From: Lachnospiraceae bacterium
GTDB taxonomy: Bacteria; Bacillota; Clostridia; Lachnospirales; Lachnospiraceae
Length of the DNA stretch: 53,571 nucleotides
Direction of reading: 5' to 3'
Assembly (NCBI GenBank): GCA_016291405.1
Contig: JAEEXG010000012.1
Coordinates: forward strand, 1 to 53,571
The notes below the pieces were generated by a model that was given only the letters and a program-made list of their open reading frames with translations, was not told the DNA's origin and made no database searches. Of the stretch, positions 2,302 to 42,558 are shown one piece after another; positions within the stretch are counted from its first letter, which is position 1; each line of letters opens with the position of its first letter. The translations under genes were made by a program, and so were the position numbers.

Positions 2302-4553
2302 TTTTTTCGATTTCAGTTTTAATACTTTTATTCTGTTTAATAATTGTTATTTCTTTTTTGTCATTTAAAAAGAAGACTCATTTAGGCAATCTGCAGGGAG
2401 ATGCTTTGATTGCCTGTTTTCTTTTGCTCGGAAGTTATGCTTTAAATGTTCAGATAGATAAAATTGAAGCAAAGGAAATCTTTTGCTCTCTTCAGTTTGT
2501 CTTTGCAGACATGATGCTTTTTATCACCCTTCTTTTGGTGTACGAAATAGCAGAAAGAAAACGCAATATTATTGCGATATCGATTTTAGGCGTGGGCCAG
2601 ATAATAGATGCAACAATATTTTTAACAAACAGATCCCATCATCTTTGGGGTAACTATTCAATCAGCACCGGAAGAAACATTAAATATGCGGTATTGGTGC
2701 CTAAAACAGGTCTTTTAGTCAGCATTATCTATGTTTTTATAATGCTTTCTTTAATGGTCTTTGCTCTTCTTGTTAAGATCAGAAAAAGTTCAAAGCTTTA
2801 CAGAACCAGATACGTAGAATCACTTATAATCGTGCTTTTGATGGTTGCTTTGCTTATTTACAGTTTCACCCAAAGCGGAAAGAAATACGGACTGTTTGCG
2901 CCTATTGCAACCGTATTGGTGCTTTCCTTCTATTACGTATCATACTGCGCATCCCCTCTAAGTGTCCTAAAGCAGATAAGCAGCTTTGTGGATTCTAACA
3001 TTCTTGACGGCATTATAATTTTCGACCATCACGGAAAACTTTTAAGAGCAAACAACAATGCAGTTTCTTTGTTTGAATCAAAGGCTGAAATGGCTTTAAA
3101 AGATGAGCTTTTAAAGAAGTTTCAGCTAGAAGATAAAGAAACGGTAGTGTGGAAAGAGATTAAGCAAAATCATTACGAAATCCACTATAAGCCCATTTAT
3201 GACGACAAAAATATCTTTGTTGCAAGCGTATTTACCTTCCATGACATAACGGAGAATGTATCAAGAATCGAAAAAGAACATAAAATGGCTACATTCGACC
3301 AGCTTTCAAACAGCTTTAACAGAAGCGGTTTCCTGGAAGCTTGCAGGAAGGTCCTTGAAGATACCGAAAACGATACAACCTATGCCTTATTAATAAGCGG
3401 TATCGTGAATTTTAAAGGTATAAATTCCTTATACGGAAGCAACTTCGGAGATAAGGTTTTAATCGGAATGGCCGAAAGCCTTCACTCCCTTCACCACAAA
3501 TTTGAAATGATTTACGGACGTACGGCGGAAGGAAAGTTTACAAGCTTAATTCCCTTTGAGTACGTTGACACGGTGGTTGAGGAGCTATCAAAACTTACCG
3601 TTGAAGGAGAAGACCACTCAAAGATTCACATCGATATCTGTAACGGCTTTGTGGTCATGAATGACAAAAAGCGCCCCATAGGCTACTACTATGAAAGAGC
3701 TTTGCTTGCCCTTGATAAGTGTAAGAAGAAAGTGGATACTCCGGTTTTGGAATACACAAAAGAAATGGCGGAAGAGCAAAGAAGATATCAGCTTATGCGT
3801 GAAGAAATGCGAGCTGCCATCGATAAAAAAGAGTTCTTCATTGTGCTTCAGCCTCAAATTGACATGAAAGAAAACAGGGTGTGCGGAGCGGAAGCTTTGG
3901 TTAGATGGAATCATCCTATTTTGGGACTTGTTTTCCCGGGAGATTTTATCCCCTTGTTTGAAGATAACGGATATATCACTAAGCTAGACAGATATGTGTG
4001 GGAAGAAACTGCATCAACAATAAGAGAGTTTATGGACAGAGGCGTTTATGACGGACATATTTCCATAAACGTATCAAGAGTTGATATCATGAGTTTTGAC
4101 GTTTGCGACTTCCTTATAAACTTAGTTGAAAAGTACAAGATTCCCGTTGAGAAGCTTCACGTGGAAGTAACGGAAAGTGCACTTGTAAACGGTAAAGATT
4201 CACTTGTATCAACCCTTGAAAAGTTAAGAGAATATGGCTTTATAGTAGAAATCGATGACTTTGGAAGCGGCTATTCGTCCCTTAACTCCCTAATGCACAT
4301 TCCTTTCGATGTTGTAAAGCTTGATATGGTATTTATGAGGGAACTTACAAAAGCTGAAAAGGATGAAATCATTATAGGCTCCATAGCAAAGATGATTCAC
4401 GACCTTCACGCATCGATAGTAGTGGAAGGTGTTGAAAATCAGGATAATGTGGACATGATTCATCGATTCAAAGGCGACGTATCTCAAGGATACTTTTATT
4501 CAAAGCCCATACCTAAAGAAATATTCCTTGAGTACGTATCTAACTTTAAATAA
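2292..4553 (+). CDS. Membrane PAS-GGDEF-EAL cyclic-di-GMP protein, likely phosphodiesterase
   Basis: This 753-aa protein probably hydrolyses the second messenger c-di-GMP in response to a membrane or ligand signal. Residues 1 to about 230 hold roughly seven hydrophobic segments, followed by a PAS-like domain (about 235-330, ending FTFHDITE), a GGDEF-like domain (about 340-490) and an EAL domain (about 500-750). The GGDEF signature is degraded to RTAEGKF, so cyclase activity is unlikely. The EAL domain keeps the key positions: AEALVRW, INVSRVD, VEVTESAL, IDDFGSGYSS, VVKLDMVF, VVEGVEN and SQGYFYSKPIP. The ATG lies in a predicted hairpin arm. A strong terminator follows the gene. Confidence 0.88.
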   Translation: MGYIFSISVLILLFCLIIVISFLSFKKKTHLGNLQGDALIACFLLLGSYALNVQIDKIEAKEIFCSLQFVFADMMLFITLLLVYEIAERKRNIIAISILGVGQIIDATIFLTNRSHHLWGNYSISTGRNIKYAVLVPKTGLLVSIIYVFIMLSLMVFALLVKIRKSSKLYRTRYVESLIIVLLMVALLIYSFTQSGKKYGLFAPIATVLVLSFYYVSYCASPLSVLKQISSFVDSNILDGIIIFDHHGKLLRANNNAVSLFESKAEMALKDELLKKFQLEDKETVVWKEIKQNHYEIHYKPIYDDKNIFVASVFTFHDITENVSRIEKEHKMATFDQLSNSFNRSGFLEACRKVLEDTENDTTYALLISGIVNFKGINSLYGSNFGDKVLIGMAESLHSLHHKFEMIYGRTAEGKFTSLIPFEYVDTVVEELSKLTVEGEDHSKIHIDICNGFVVMNDKKRPIGYYYERALLALDKCKKKVDTPVLEYTKEMAEEQRRYQLMREEMRAAIDKKEFFIVLQPQIDMKENRVCGAEALVRWNHPILGLVFPGDFIPLFEDNGYITKLDRYVWEETASTIREFMDRGVYDGHISINVSRVDIMSFDVCDFLINLVEKYKIPVEKLHVEVTESALVNGKDSLVSTLEKLREYGFIVEIDDFGSGYSSLNSLMHIPFDVVKLDMVFMRELTKAEKDEIIIGSIAKMIHDLHASIVVEGVENQDNVDMIHRFKGDVSQGYFYSKPIPKEIFLEYVSNFK

Positions 4554-19271: not shown

Positions 19272-19943
19272 ATGATTTATATAGTGATGCTTGTTATTTC
19301 AATGTTATATGTGACCGATTTAATTTTATTGGTTCCAAAATACACTCTCTGCAAATACGACCACACACCCAGAAGAAAAAAGCTTTTCTGGAAGGCCGCT
19401 TGTATCGGCGTGCCCCTTCTTGTATTCTTGGCAACTTTAATCCTTTCATATATATGGAAAGAATTTGATTATAAAGAATTGCTTCTTTTTATAGGAATGT
19501 TTCTTTGTGCCATCGGAGACATTGTATTAGAGATTAGATTCTTAAAAGGCGGCCTTTTGTTTTTGGCAGGCCACTTAGTATACGTAGCTTCCATTATATT
19601 AATAGGAGGAGGCTTTAATATAATTTCTTTGTCCGTATATGTGGTTTTGGCGCTAGCCGGCGTAATCTTAACCTTTAAAAAGCTTGGGAAAAAGTATCGC
19701 TTAGCTCTTTTATCCTATAACTTTGTCATAAGCGCCACCTTCGCATTGTCGATTCCCCTTATCATTTCTTTTAAACCCGAAAACATGATTCTTGGCATCG
19801 GAGCCTGCTTCTTAGTTATTTCAGACTGGCTTCTTGCAAGAAACAAGGTCTTTAAAACAGGGTATTACTGGTCCTTGCTTTCTTTGGTTTTCTATTTCGG
19901 CGGCCAGATATTAATATCCATTTTCCCGATGTTAAATAGATAG
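19272..19943 (+). CDS. YhhN-family membrane protein (lysoplasmalogenase-like)
   Basis: The 223-aa polytopic protein has about seven to eight hydrophobic helices. Family motifs are MFLCAIGDIVLEI (about residues 76-88), FLAGHLVYVASI (about 96-107) and FLVISDWLLARNKV (about 179-192), with the Asp/His positions conserved in YhhN/TMEM86 alkenyl-ether hydrolases. Characterised members cleave the vinyl ether bond of lysoplasmalogens, and many anaerobic clostridia make plasmalogens, so the activity is plausible. It has its own promoter and stands alone before a 650-bp non-coding stretch. Confidence 0.72.
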   Translation: MIYIVMLVISMLYVTDLILLVPKYTLCKYDHTPRRKKLFWKAACIGVPLLVFLATLILSYIWKEFDYKELLLFIGMFLCAIGDIVLEIRFLKGGLLFLAGHLVYVASIILIGGGFNIISLSVYVVLALAGVILTFKKLGKKYRLALLSYNFVISATFALSIPLIISFKPENMILGIGACFLVISDWLLARNKVFKTGYYWSLLSLVFYFGGQILISIFPMLNR

Positions 19944-19985
19944 TACTTGATTTAATGTCGATTATTTTATATTGTTTATTATGAT

Positions 19986-20070
19986 GTTTCGGCCGTTTCC
20001 GGCCGAAACCATTTAATGATTTCAAGCGGAGTGCCGTTCCCGGCACTGCGTTAAGCCTTTTTGCAAGGCT
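19986..20070. repeat. Three consecutive hairpins in the non-coding region
   Basis: Three stems stand in series: GTTTCGGCCG-TTTC-CGGCCGAAAC (19986-20009, perfect 10 bp), AGTGCCG-TTCC-CGGCACT (20030-20047, perfect 7 bp) and AGCCTT-TTTGC-AAGGCT (20054-20070, perfect 6 bp). The first two share a four-base pyrimidine loop. No long T tract follows any of them, so they are not obvious terminators. They open a 650-bp stretch (19944-20593) that holds no gene but is highly structured. Confidence 0.8.
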
Positions 20071-20086
20071 ACAATCTCATTTTTTA

Positions 20087-20141
20087 TTGATGCTTCGGGC
20101 TTTTGATGCTTCGGGCTTTTGATGCTTCGGGCTTTTTGATG
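20087..20141. repeat. 16-bp tandem repeat, three perfect copies plus a partial fourth
   Basis: TTGATGCTTCGGGCTT begins at 20087, 20103 and 20119, and a partial copy TTGATG starts at 20136. It lies just before the inverted-repeat array. The sense of transcription, if any, is unknown. Confidence 0.9.
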
Positions 20142-20152
20142 TTATGGGTTCT

Positions 20153-20487
20153 TTTTGACTAAAAGGGGGCTAGCTTTTTTATTTAGTCAAAGTTTCTTTC
20201 TCTTTGTTTTGCCGCTTCGGTGGCTTTTTTGACTAAGCGCGCTTTGCGCACTTGATTTAGTCAAACATATCGACCTTTTTGCGATGGCCTCAAAGCCTGT
20301 TTTTGACTAAATGAAGAACAACAGGGGCTTTTAGTCAAAAAAATCAAAGGAATTCTTGCCGTAAGGTACTGAGTTTATGACTAAAGAGAAGAAAGAAACC
20401 GCTTTTAGTCAAAAATGAACTTAAATATGAGCTGATTATCAAAGAAATCGTTGACTAAATTAATGTCATTAGCTGTGTTTAGTCAAC
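20153..20487. repeat. Periodic inverted-repeat array, five units at exact 74-bp period
   Basis: Five units of TTGACTAA-N20-TTAGTCAA occur with no change in spacing. Forward arms start at 20155, 20229, 20303, 20377 (ATGACTAA, one change) and 20451; reverse arms start at 20183, 20257, 20331, 20405 and 20479. Every interior is exactly 20 nt and every gap between units exactly 38 nt. Arms extend to 10 bp in most units (TTTGACTAAA/TTTAGTCAAA). In unit 5 the outer pair is G-C instead of T-A (GTTGACTAAA/TTTAGTCAAC), a compensatory change. The interiors and gaps show little similarity between units by eye. Unit 2's interior folds further (GCGC-GCTTT-GCGC) and unit 5's contains TAATG-T-CATTA. The array ends 107 bases before the PD-(D/E)XK-like gene. 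It does not match a CRISPR, whose repeats are longer and direct. Its role is unknown: candidates are a guide or small-RNA precursor, or a protein-binding array with sites phased about seven DNA turns apart. Confidence 0.92.
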
Positions 20488-20500
20488 AATGTTAATATTT

Positions 20501-20524
20501 CCACCCCTTTTTCAGGGGAAGTGG
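20501..20524. other. Hairpin between the array and the nuclease gene
   Basis: CCACCCCT pairs with AGGGG-AA-GTGG in a short imperfect stem around TTTTC. A second stem, ATGGT-CGCGGGGCT-ACCAT, follows at 20540-20558. Together they occupy most of the leader between the array and the ribosome site AAAGGAG at 20582-20588. Confidence 0.55.
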
Positions 20525-20593
20525 ACACGGATGAGTCGGATGGTCGCGGGGCTACCATAGAAAAGAAACTAATTAACCTATAAAGGAGACAAG

Positions 20594-21391
20594 ATGAAAG
20601 AGATTCTTAAACTTATGAATCAAAGGGCCGCAGTGCTTAGGCAGGCAATCAAGAAAGCACAAAAAGAGGAAGGCACATTCCCGGAGGGGCATTTAAGAAT
20701 ATCCGTAGATAAGGGCTATTTAAGATGCTATCAGGTCACGGAACCGGGAGATAATTCAGGAAAGTACATTTTAAAGAAAGAAAGGTCAAGGGCTTCAAAG
20801 CTTGCACAAAAGGATTACAATACCGATTTCCTTATGCTTGCAACAAAGGAGCTTGAAAGGCTTGAAAAAAGTATAAAAGTGTTTTCAAAAGAAAATGCAG
20901 ACAATGCCTTTAATAATCTGCCGCTTGAGAGGCAGTGCCTCATTTCACCATACATCTTAAGCGACGATCAATATGCCGCAGAATGGGAAAAAAGAAACTA
21001 TTTGACAAATCAGTATTTGCCTGAAGATAAGCGATACGAAACAAAGAAAGGAGAAATGGTGCGCTCTAAGTCTGAGTCGATTATTGCAGATATTTTATGT
21101 GATTTAGGAATTCCTTATCATTATGAGCAGGCGCTAAAATTGCGTAACGGAGCGATATATTATCCCGATTTTACCATTCTTAACAAGAAAGAAAGGGAAG
21201 AAATGTATCTTGAGCACCTTGGACTTTTGGATGAAGAAGGCTATAGGAAAAACAATTTGATAAAGATGGATGAATACAGGGCGAACGGGATTTATATCGG
21301 AAAGAACCTGTTGATTACATATGAAACTAAAGAATCGCCACTGGATATAAAAGGAATTCGGAAGATGTTTATTGATTTGTTTGTAGAGTAA
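20594..21391 (+). CDS. PD-(D/E)XK-like nuclease next to the inverted-repeat array
   Basis: The 265-aa protein has an N-terminal coiled-coil/basic region (residues 1-110: LRISVDKGYLRCYQV, then KYILKKERSRASKLAQKDYN) and a C-terminal domain with the layout of a PD-(D/E)XK endonuclease. VRSKSESIIADILCDLGI supplies the first-helix Glu (about 154-171), IYYPDFTIL the Asp (about 186-194), and MYLEHLGLLDEEGY a Glu followed by His in place of the usual E-x-K (about 202-215). IYIGKNLLITYETKESPLD follows. Similar proteins are widespread in Firmicutes without an assigned job, as far as I recall. No helicase, methylase or second defence gene adjoins it. The 74-bp periodic array and hairpins fill the region upstream; the link is positional. 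AAAGGAG supports the start. Confidence 0.7.
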   Translation: MKEILKLMNQRAAVLRQAIKKAQKEEGTFPEGHLRISVDKGYLRCYQVTEPGDNSGKYILKKERSRASKLAQKDYNTDFLMLATKELERLEKSIKVFSKENADNAFNNLPLERQCLISPYILSDDQYAAEWEKRNYLTNQYLPEDKRYETKKGEMVRSKSESIIADILCDLGIPYHYEQALKLRNGAIYYPDFTILNKKEREEMYLEHLGLLDEEGYRKNNLIKMDEYRANGIYIGKNLLITYETKESPLDIKGIRKMFIDLFVE

Positions 21392-21447
21392 ATGTAAAAA
21401 GAAACCGAACTGAAAAGGCCAATGGTAAGGGAATTAGAGTACTTTAC

Positions 21448-21477
21448 TTGACTAAATCACGCAAATGATGCTAGAAT
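21448..21477 (+). promoter_or_regulatory. Sigma-A-type promoter for the ior operon
   Basis: TTGACT (21448-21453), an 18-nt spacer and TAGAAT (21472-21477) lie about 60 bases before iorA. The -35 box is within a TTGACTAA octamer identical to the array arm, but it has no partner arm here. Confidence 0.6.
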
Positions 21478-27263: not shown

Positions 27264-27331
27264 AACTTCTTTAAGTAATGTGATATAAAGAAGTTATTGA
27301 ACTTCTTTAAGTAATGTGATATAAAGAAGTT
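27264..27331. repeat. Two 32-bp direct repeats, each an inverted repeat (probable operator)
   Basis: Identical 32-bp copies at 27264-27295 and 27300-27331 (36-bp period). Each has arms AACTTCTTTA and TAAAGAAGTT around AGTAATGTGATA and includes a TATAAA hexamer. They end 15 bases before the ATG of the HTH-DUF3990 gene, a good position for autoregulation by its XRE domain. Confidence 0.85.
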
Positions 27332-40519: not shown

Positions 40520-42558
40520 AAAAATCAATTAAAGCATTGATAGCGGTTACACTGACAGCTTCGGTTTTGCTTGGAAGCGGCGCCGTAGCTTATGCGGCAC
40601 AAAATAAAGAGGATAACGGAAAGGTAACAAAAGAAGAAACGGTTTCTTTGGACAAATCGGTTTCATCAAATGAGACGGTTTCTTCAAACGAGAAGGTTTC
40701 TTTGGGCGAAGGAACCGATGCACTCAGTAACGACGAAGTGGTTTACGTATTCACCGATTCAACCGGTAACGTTACAAAGGTTATGGACAGCATCTGGATC
40801 GAAGAGGACGAAGACAGAGTGCAGGATGCTAAATCCGCAAACCTTCCCCTTGATGTAAAGGTTGAATATAAGCTTGACGGAAAGACGGTTACACCTCAAA
40901 ACCTTAAGGGAAAGAGCGGACACCTTGAAGTGAAGGTAAGCTTTGACAATAAGAGATTTGAGTATAAAGAAATAAACGGACAAAAAGAAAAGGTATACGT
41001 TCCTTTCTTAGCTAGTACCGTTACAGCCATGGACAATGGAAAGTATTCAAATGTCACCGTTTCTAACGGTCGTGTGGTTTACGACGGAGCAAGATACGCT
41101 GTTGTAGGCCTTGCACTTCCGGGACTTAAAGAGGATTTAAATCTTGATGCTGAGTCTGAAGAGGTTGAGATTCCCGAAGAAATCACCATCGAAGCTGATG
41201 TAAAGGACTTTGACGAACTTGGAATGTATTTGCTTGTATCAAACAGCGTATTTAGTTCACTTGACTTTGATGCAACCGATAAAATGGATGAATTAAAAGA
41301 TGACTTATCAAAGATTGATGATGCAATGAATGCACTTATGAACGGTTCCGATGAAATGTATAAGGGACTTTTAAAGTTATCTGACGGAGCAGGAAAGTTA
41401 AATAATGGCGTCATTCAGCTATACACAGGCCTTGATACCATCGATGCAAACTCAGATGATCTGGTTAACGGCGCAAAAGAAGTGTTCAACACTTTGTTAA
41501 AAACAGCATCCACTCAGCTTGCAGCATCGGGAGTTAACGTAGGTAACCTTACAATCGATAATTACTCATCAACCCTTAACGGAGTAATTAATGGCGGCAC
41601 AATTAAGAACCAGGCAAGAGAAAAGGTTTCAGCGGAAGTTAAGAAAAATGAGGCTCAGTTTAGAGCAGCCGCAAATCAAAAGGCTGAAGCAACTGTAAGA
41701 GAAAAGGTAGAAGCAGGTGTTAAGGCTACAGTTGAAGCAAAGGTAACGGCAGCAGTTAAGGAGCAGGTGGAAGCAGCTGCTAAGCAGGCAGCAGGAGTGC
41801 CTAGCAAAGATGCTATCAGAAATCAGGTTGCAGCGGGCGTTGCACAGCAGGCAGGTTTAAGTGTTGATGAGGTTTTGGCAGATCCGGAATTATCGGCACA
41901 GGTAGATGCAATCGTGGACGCTAAGATTTCAGAAGCAAATGAGCAGATAGCACAGGCAGTTGATGCTAAGATGGCATCTGATGAAATAAAGGCAACAATT
42001 GAAGCTAAGACAAACGAAGCCATGGCATCTGATGAAGTTAAGGCACAGATTGAAGCCTTGGTAAATCAGAACCTTAACAGTGATGAAACTAAGGCAATGA
42101 TTGATGCAGGCGTTAAAACAGCCATGAACCAGTATGTAGATAACTACCTTGAAACAAATGATGAAGTTAAGGGCCAGATAAGCGAAGGCAACAAGAAAAT
42201 CGCAGAGCTTAAAGCATCTTTGGATAACTACAATAAGTTTTATCAGGGAATAATCGCTTACACAGACGGTGTCGGCCAAGCAAAAGACGGAGCAAAGAAG
42301 ATTTCAGATTCAATGCCTGAACTTATTAACGGTATCGCAACTCTTACAAACGGCGGTAAGCAGTTATCAGACGGACTTAATCAATTCAACGATGAAGGAA
42401 TCGTTAAGCTTAACGATATCGTCAACACCACACTTGAAGGTATGGTAGAGCGTTTCGATACAGTAAAGGAAGTATCAAAAGACTATGATTCCTATGCCGG
42501 CGAAGGCGAAAGCAAAGAATCCGTTAAATTTGTTTACAAGATTGAAAGTGCTAAATAA
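40516..42558 (+). CDS. Secreted heptad-repeat partner of the MMPL transporter
   Basis: The 680-aa protein has a signal peptide (MKKSIKALIAVTLTASVLLG, cleavage near AYA-AQN). An N-terminal beta-rich region with LPLDVKVEYKLDGKTVTPQNL follows, then XXXLXXG heptads (SDGAGKLNNGVIQLYTGLDT at about 290-309; DGVGQAKDGAKKISDSMPEL near 585-604). Between them lies an Ala/Glu/Lys-rich helical stretch (about 370-570) with repeated SDEIKA- or SDEVKAQIEA-type units. YhgE/Pip-like heptad proteins accompany MMPL exporters in Clostridia. It may form a periplasm-like conduit or adaptor across the cell wall; this role is inferred. It has no clear C-terminal anchor. Confidence 0.75.
   Translation: MKKSIKALIAVTLTASVLLGSGAVAYAAQNKEDNGKVTKEETVSLDKSVSSNETVSSNEKVSLGEGTDALSNDEVVYVFTDSTGNVTKVMDSIWIEEDEDRVQDAKSANLPLDVKVEYKLDGKTVTPQNLKGKSGHLEVKVSFDNKRFEYKEINGQKEKVYVPFLASTVTAMDNGKYSNVTVSNGRVVYDGARYAVVGLALPGLKEDLNLDAESEEVEIPEEITIEADVKDFDELGMYLLVSNSVFSSLDFDATDKMDELKDDLSKIDDAMNALMNGSDEMYKGLLKLSDGAGKLNNGVIQLYTGLDTIDANSDDLVNGAKEVFNTLLKTASTQLAASGVNVGNLTIDNYSSTLNGVINGGTIKNQAREKVSAEVKKNEAQFRAAANQKAEATVREKVEAGVKATVEAKVTAAVKEQVEAAAKQAAGVPSKDAIRNQVAAGVAQQAGLSVDEVLADPELSAQVDAIVDAKISEANEQIAQAVDAKMASDEIKATIEAKTNEAMASDEVKAQIEALVNQNLNSDETKAMIDAGVKTAMNQYVDNYLETNDEVKGQISEGNKKIAELKASLDNYNKFYQGIIAYTDGVGQAKDGAKKISDSMPELINGIATLTNGGKQLSDGLNQFNDEGIVKLNDIVNTTLEGMVERFDTVKEVSKDYDSYAGEGESKESVKFVYKIESAK

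Follow-up and report, generated by a model that had tools for sequence, protein, structure and literature searches.

CRISPR loci are made up of direct repeats with unique spacers, together with cas genes, and homing endonucleases cleave an empty target site, with the result that their own gene is copied. In the available sections of one account, the RAYT gene is flanked by inverted repeats with which it co-evolves, and the number of repeats tracks the gene (PMC2817692). TIGR arrays are defined, in the available sections of another account, by 36-nt units in which edge and loop repeats flank two short spacers (PMC12045711). The present study concerns an array of inverted repeats beside a nuclease-type gene in a 53,571-nucleotide stretch of DNA, the whole of which is referred to here as the window. 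Judged by its gene content, the source is probably a clostridial bacterium of the gut or rumen. The best analogue appears to be the REP/RAYT pairing, and comparison of the locus with its relatives suggests that the array is, very probably, a double-stranded DNA-site array of the adjacent nuclease itself. The array and the gene beside it comprise the following features.

20155 to 20190, no strand: dyad unit 1, TTGACTAA-N20-TTAGTCAA (pattern scan)
20229 to 20264, no strand: dyad unit 2 (pattern scan)
20303 to 20338, no strand: dyad unit 3 (pattern scan)
20377 to 20412, no strand: dyad unit 4, with ATGACTAA as its left arm (outermost base altered)
20451 to 20486, no strand: dyad unit 5 (pattern scan)
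20594 to 21391, + strand: putative cognate nuclease gene, 265 aa (fold and invariant residues)

The array (20153–20487) lies between a yhhN-type gene, which ends at 19943, and the 265-codon ORF at 20594–21391, and consists of five dyad units with interiors of 20 bp and gaps of 38 bp. Perfect TTGACTAA-N20-TTAGTCAA units start at 20155, 20229, 20303, and 20451, with none in 100 shuffles; the unit at 20377, ATGACTAA-N20-TTAGTCAA, has one mismatch, an outermost T-to-A change at what is the most variable arm position in the array family, and because it fills the grid, all four steps are 74 bp. This recount agrees with the preliminary description, which had reported five periodic inverted-repeat units with a mismatch in the fourth. 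The fixed 74-bp step that it also proposed holds in the window array but not in related arrays, which have several near-whole-turn steps, and the G-C pair of unit 5 that it read as a compensating change lies just outside the 8-bp arms, the base after the arm being A in the orthologous array of G016. Directly before unit 1 there is a 16-bp tandem repeat, TTGATGCTTCGGGCTT, in 3.4 copies (20087–20141), with a shorter version in G016, and the tandem-repeat scan also found two short 18-bp repeats in the window, at 27273–27330 and 40659–40702.

The product of the adjacent gene, P0001, begins with a helix, a β-hairpin, and a long helix (residues 1–100) and has a PD-(D/E)XK-type domain at approximately residues 145–263. 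It possesses the core fold and the catalytic acidic residues that characterize this superfamily; residues E161, D192, E207, and H208 are invariant in 57 aligned proteins. In structural comparisons, the nuclease domain matches the homing endonuclease I-Bth0305I (PDB 3r3p) best. Searches with P0001 gave no match in Pfam (E 0.01) or NCBIfam and weak matches in PHROGs to phage endonucleases and Holliday-junction resolvases. The N-terminal region gave generic coiled-coil matches only and no recognized DNA-binding fold. Matches of its coiled coil to TasH and IS621 sit among many unrelated coiled coils and are not among the best matches shown when the domain is searched alone, and no conclusion is drawn from them. 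By Pfam, the nine neighboring proteins are of transport, oxidoreductase, AMP-binding, tRNA-synthetase, membrane, and regulator types.

The C-terminal half of P0001 resembles the PADLOC candidate PDC-S68 (E = 3.6e-30), and this relationship to the C-terminal domains of candidate defense proteins bears on one alternative explanation, in which the array keeps a potentially harmful nuclease bound to the chromosome, to be released against invaders or the cell itself when the host DNA is lost or taken over. Such titration would fit the large number of sites for each nuclease gene. However, no known defense genes were found among the nine neighbors scanned with Pfam, and sequestration leaves the dispersed arrays described below unexplained; we consider it distinctly unlikely.

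Relatives of P0001 are present in 29 of 97 related genomes, with up to nine per genome, and include split, stop-bearing, and fragment copies. Array counts were based on 63 of 73 homologue places, those dropped being six domain-only places in G065, the second pieces of split genes at G045:C11 and G027:C128, and the fragments G011:C128 and G014:C166. The six G065 loci were reused within a set of 13 domain-only controls, and L035 belongs to both the 63 set and the 13 set; the protein alignment comprises 57 of the 63 loci, omitting L022, L032, L035, L037, L116, and L123. In flank scans that assumed no arm sequence, with units counted within 1.5 kb of the nuclease gene, at least two inverted-repeat units were found at 49 of the 63 loci and at least three at 36, while shuffled flanks (n = 378) gave two units once and three units never. 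Control 3-kb stretches from the window and genus genomes (n = 44) contained two units in three cases and three units in none. At least two units were found at two of the 13 domain-only loci, and L118, a domain-only locus with three units at steps of 54 and 55 bp, is possibly a genuine but distant member. Of the 14 misses, three (L013, L018, and L093) show arrays in a relaxed scan or by eye, and at 11 of the 63 loci the scans made found no three-unit array (L031 was also read, and L100 has a possible two-unit array). A second set of nine homologues, from four genomes of the phylum scan, had at least two units in six cases and at least three in five, with 13 units at one locus. The linkage that the preliminary description had singled out, an undescribed array beside a nuclease, is borne out as one of dozens of nuclease–array pairs, and no description of such a pair was found in the literature searched, namely the open-access PMC literature.

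The arms beside these relatives include GGCGAAG/CTTCGCC, CACACCT/AGGTGTG, CATCTAA, TACGTGT, TATCCCA, and others. TATCCCA-type units at L115 (G017:C16) follow one another at 72–73 bp steps upstream of the nuclease gene and again more than 1 kb downstream. At L101 (1956–2360), about four near-identical 63-bp tandem units grade into diverged ones toward the gene, a gradient suggestive of array growth through tandem duplication, followed by divergence of the sequence between arms that stay fixed. Among viral contigs, 10 pattern matches were found, none encoding a P0001 relative in a search for close relatives only. Two phage records matched, one with 95% coverage at 29% identity and the other with 38% coverage at 37.6%, and eight plasmid records matched the nuclease domain only.

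Arrays of at least three units are found on 32 upstream and 6 downstream sides of nuclease genes, the array being downstream in one clade and on both sides at G013:C8. That most arrays are directly upstream would suit autoregulation, in which the array is an operator through which the protein, whether or not it is active as a nuclease, represses its own gene cooperatively and the dispersed arrays constitute its regulon. However, the downstream clade and the two-sided locus argue against this explanation, as do the invariance of the catalytic residues in the 57 aligned proteins and the occurrence of dispersed arrays between convergent genes or after genes, and we regard it as unlikely. Autoregulation and sequestration are close rivals of a RAYT/REP-like role, and they are not mutually exclusive.

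Arm sequences differ among nuclease lineages but track the protein. Half-sites were compared at 47 loci, namely the 49 loci having two or more units minus L032 and L116. Of 17 protein pairs with at least 60% identity, drawn from seven groups of relatives, 16 share a half-site; the lone exception is TTGACTAA versus TTGACCC, which have five bases in common. The corresponding counts are 2 of 20 pairs at 50–60% identity, 4 of 46 at 40–50%, and 10 of 998 below 40%. Over all pairs, the rank correlation between protein identity and half-site similarity is 0.094 (27 of 2,000 permutations). As judged from these comparisons, the link between protein and half-site is seen chiefly in closely related proteins, whose loci are also of common descent. 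A weak overall correlation would be expected if recognition diverges fast, and because common descent of whole loci contributes to the association, more weight falls on switches within orthologous arrays. Specifically, TATCCCA (L108 and L112) and TATCGCA (L110 and L113) differ at the switch base in eight of eight aligned half-sites per array, as scored by eye, with the change on both strands and the DNA between half-sites drifting (four aligned arrays). Similarly, ATGCATAA at L098 and L099 is mostly ATGGATAA at L106, where some half-sites are intermediate and one inter-unit stretch is well kept. One locus has TTGACTAA in G013 and TTGACCC in G003 and G001, and a leftover TTGACCC-type unit stands at the start of that G013 TTGACTAA array. 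In such switches the half-sites across an array shift as a set, and the intervening DNA is not replaced. Nuclease paralogues within one genome also differ in their arms, and each arm sequence is common to the close relatives of its paralogue. A solitary array at L170 (approximately 3700–4330; G001:C13), on a contig with no nuclease homologue among those located, combines arms of CACACCT-like, CCCACCT-like, and CCATCCAT-like sequence within a single stretch, a mixture that would suit decay or a change of specificity.

The spacing of the units was analyzed in arrays of at least three units, which yielded 69 steps from 38 arrays. The best period is 10.6 bp (R = 0.78), which was matched by none of 2,000 jittered sets (nominal P = 5e-19, with the related arrays not independent), and at a period of 10.5 bp the phase is 10.4, near whole turns. 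Steps cluster near 52, 63, 73, 84, 94, 106, 127, 136, 147, and 158 bp, and within-array step differences alone peak at 10.7 bp. The phasing is imperfect, with steps of 60–61 bp (L090 and L116), 81–82 bp (L033), and 164 bp (L132). Among TTGACTAA arrays, steps of 74 bp (42 instances), 73 bp (7), 63 bp (5), 84 bp (3), and 64 bp (2) were found, with one each of 54, 95, and 138 bp, and two orthologous arrays display a 10-bp, one-turn difference between the same units. Such near-whole-turn steps within and between arrays, together with the one-turn difference between orthologues, strongly support one of the two readings offered in the preliminary description, in which a protein binds sites set about seven helical turns from one another.

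Conservation follows the arms. In five orthologous arrays, 283 of 288 arm positions are identical, against 287 of 360 N20 positions and 405 of 454 gap positions; in the C71/C46 arrays, the values are 46 of 48, 23 of 60, and 17 of 37, with partly coding flanks at approximately 84–85%. The contrast between conserved arms and drifting N20 is, on this sequence evidence, one of purifying selection on the arms. In four of these five arrays, divergence is more rapid in the N20 than in the gaps. Comparison of strains had been suggested earlier as a check for guides, which predicted fixed arms with variable interiors; the arms are conserved, and the interiors are inherited with drift. Across 85 units from 22 loci, the outermost arm bases are changed on one side only in 21 and on both sides in 4, compared with 2.4 double changes expected (Fisher P = 0.25), and an arm pair is broken in 32 of the 85. 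Half-sites, as far as aligned units reveal it, are mutating nearly independently and not as base pairs.

These data bear directly on the other reading of the preliminary description, an RNA array, in which hairpin RNAs with variable loops would serve as guides in the manner of TIGR or CRISPR systems or as an RNA antitoxin. The arms can pair, each window unit folds better, whichever strand is taken, than the majority of its 200 shuffled versions, all four double outermost-base changes keep pairing, the array is often upstream of the gene, and TIGR systems include stem-loop arrays in the available sections of their account (PMC12045711). However, the double changes are not significantly above chance, the steps fall near whole DNA turns, arrays occur upstream, downstream, and dispersed at a distance from the nuclease, and no Pfam match to a Nop domain was obtained. 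Moreover, drifting interiors and broken arm pairs are the reverse of what hairpin guides would lead one to expect. A further proposed check, matching the array to phages and plasmids, turned up six phage records, none of them convincing (best E 0.1, with one 53-base stretch), and no plasmid match. The RNA-array reading is hence very improbable, and guide RNAs are rejected as the leading explanation. Instead, near-whole-turn phasing, arm conservation, and independent half-site mutation together point to DNA binding sites rather than a guide-RNA array.

The array and nuclease gene are part of a larger segment that some congeners carry at this site and others lack there, with the following additional features.

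19944 to 21451, no strand: module, about 1.5 kb, approximate extent (locus alignment)
19971 to 20085, + strand: leader, three GC-rich hairpins closed by an outer stem, inside the module (fold)
21448 to 21477, + strand: lone TTGACTAA, candidate −35 box (TTGACT-18-TAGAAT) of the downstream gene

The module (leader, array, and nuclease) lies between yhhN and a ferredoxin-oxidoreductase gene in G000 and G016. In G003, G013, and G001, yhhN and the oxidoreductase gene are separated at the aligned empty site by only about 100 bp, and the module is absent from this site also in G015 and G004. Insertion at the yhhN site would account for this distribution, and loss elsewhere is also possible. The TACTTGA at 19944–19950 and 21445–21451 is a possible 7-bp target duplication, a weak sign at seven bases, with copies on both sides in G000 and one copy in G016. 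In G006, another family nuclease lies upstream of the same oxidoreductase gene in the opposite orientation. The lone TTGACTAA at 21448 is probably a native promoter outside the array and was rejected as an array member; a similar promoter-like sequence is present in the three empty sites.

The leader, a 121-nt fold with a z-score of −6.3, stands just before the window array, and partly similar hairpins precede the arrays of 59–61% identical homologues at another locus; it is possibly a structured RNA of this subgroup. It was rejected as a general component, since other leaders are mixed and often terminator-like (their folds being the best of several windows per leader, with 20 shuffles each). 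Rfam returned nothing at gathering score, and three matches below the cutoff, the best being BjrC1505 at 23.6 bits against a cutoff of 50, were taken as chance.

Arrays of the window type also occur away from the nuclease. Elsewhere in the window genome, C36, C44, and C67 have TTGACTAA arrays of their own, spaced on a 73/74-bp grid, and a scan of 18 genus genomes for 7-bp TGACTAA arms with N20 found 81 units (15 in G000, 10 in G016, 27 in G003, 29 in G013, and none in the other 14), compared with 0 units for the same arms with N22. Five genus genomes encode a nuclease of the P0001 clade (at least 59% identity), and four of them contain TGACTAA units; the 13 genomes without the clade, several of which are incomplete, contain none. 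Among 21 arrays with surroundings listed, 15 overlap no ORF of at least 60 codons and six overlap one, of 74–94 codons in five cases and 235 in one; their neighbors are unrelated genes, and the arrays are not at promoters alone. One dispersed array has been copied, as about 300 bp in inverted orientation at G003:C6 and C106 (87–91%), and recurs in G013 (82–83%). Within the dispersed repeat of approximately 250–300 bp at L168 (2797–3094), L169 (4215–4512), and L173 (approximately 3992–4239), which has inverted copies in G003, two ATGACTAA-N20-TTAGTCAT units 149 bp apart surround a conserved AAGAATTGTCAGAGCTT core. A TGACTAA-N20-TTAGTCA palindrome is also found in the 38-kb viral contig L174 (4071–4104), amid GTGACTAA/TTAGTCAC repeats.

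Some of the TTGACTAA arrays are kept at orthologous places (G000/G013, G003/G013, and G000/G016), as would suit chromosome-organizing sites of the host that are bound by another conserved protein, the nuclease adjoining by chance. That explanation is improbable, given that the arms differ between paralogues in one genome in step with each paralogue's close relatives and that the genus genomes lacking the P0001 clade, incomplete as several are, lack the TGACTAA unit. The main misfit is that G003 has 27 TGACTAA units and its nearest nuclease copy stands beside TTGACCC arms; arrays may outlive or exceed the local specificity, or there may be another binder. G003 may have lost a second nuclease copy (its assembly is 96% complete), or the change may be recent. 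Dispersal is not general, being found for one motif of the three tested; for the other two, almost all units lie at the nuclease locus (CTTCGCC, 9 of 9; CACACCT, 9 of 10).

Collectively, these observations are consistent with a model in which a single-gene nuclease with a homing-endonuclease-like PD-(D/E)XK fold binds its array as duplex DNA. Each unit would bind a symmetric assembly through two inverted 7–8 bp half-sites, about 28 bp apart in the window, and whole-turn steps would align neighboring assemblies along the same face of the helix, where they could touch. Nuclease and array would travel and evolve together, a shift in specificity being accompanied by a shift in the half-sites, and the arrays would expand in tandem and, in one lineage, be copied to other intergenic places with the half-sites kept. 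The pair may be a selfish or domesticated module whose nuclease acts on array-bearing DNA. The RAYT/REP-like role implied here is proposed tentatively, as the leading function; on balance, we favor the combined account, in which the nuclease has its own DNA-site array and this role heads the candidate functions. It is also conceivable, although we stop somewhat short of claiming it, that array-coupled, single-gene PD-(D/E)XK nucleases, with several paralogues per genome and lineage-private phased arrays rewritten half-site by half-site, represent a new class.

If the model is correct, the array would be a DNA-borne partner of the nuclease (an assembly platform, a brake, or a self-marker), and a DNA array would run a nuclease system where CRISPR and TIGR systems use RNA. 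The family offers more than 20 natural pairs of a small nuclease and a putative recognition sequence. Some of these pairs involve related proteins of 66–85% identity with half-sites that differ, for the most part, at a single base (TATCCCA/TATCGCA and ATGCATAA/ATGGATAA), which makes protein–DNA specificity and its evolution directly testable. The family could also become a source of new proteins that bind or cut DNA at rare sites.

Several known systems share parts of this arrangement. The array is not CRISPR, as the preliminary description had also concluded: the arms alternate in orientation, the interiors are inherited with drift, and Pfam found no cas family in P0001 and the nine nearby proteins. 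Like TIGR-Tas, as far as the available sections of its account describe it, the locus has short repeats with variable spacers beside the gene for a small nuclease-type protein. However, there is no 36-nt unit, the arrangement being 8-20-8 plus 38 with arms that are inverted complements, the half-sites vary nearly independently and show DNA phasing, and Pfam gave no Nop match among P0001 and the nine nearby proteins. I-Bth0305I, together with the Vsr/TnsA-like nuclease fold, provides the best structural match and likewise a solitary gene present or absent by site, and occupied and empty module sites exist among congeners. PDC-S68 and the relatives fused to helicases or AAA ATPases have a homologous C-terminal nuclease domain but are large or differently built, with a pair of units at 2 of 13 domain-only loci. 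The resemblance to REP/RAYT, taken from the available sections of its account, is closest: a nuclease-type gene stands beside co-evolving inverted repeats of alternating orientation and regular spacing, and cognate repeats are dispersed in the genomes that have the gene. In contrast, P0001 is of the PD-(D/E)XK type and RAYT is an IS200/IS605-like tyrosine transposase, the units here consist of two 7–8 bp half-sites around a variable 20-mer at near-whole-turn steps, and copies are few, with 10–29 TGACTAA units in four genomes, dispersal for one motif of three, and the remaining motifs seldom found away from the gene. The nuclease gene is flanked by co-evolving inverted repeats, usually on one side, as a RAYT gene is by its own, and the resemblance is one of working rather than of membership.
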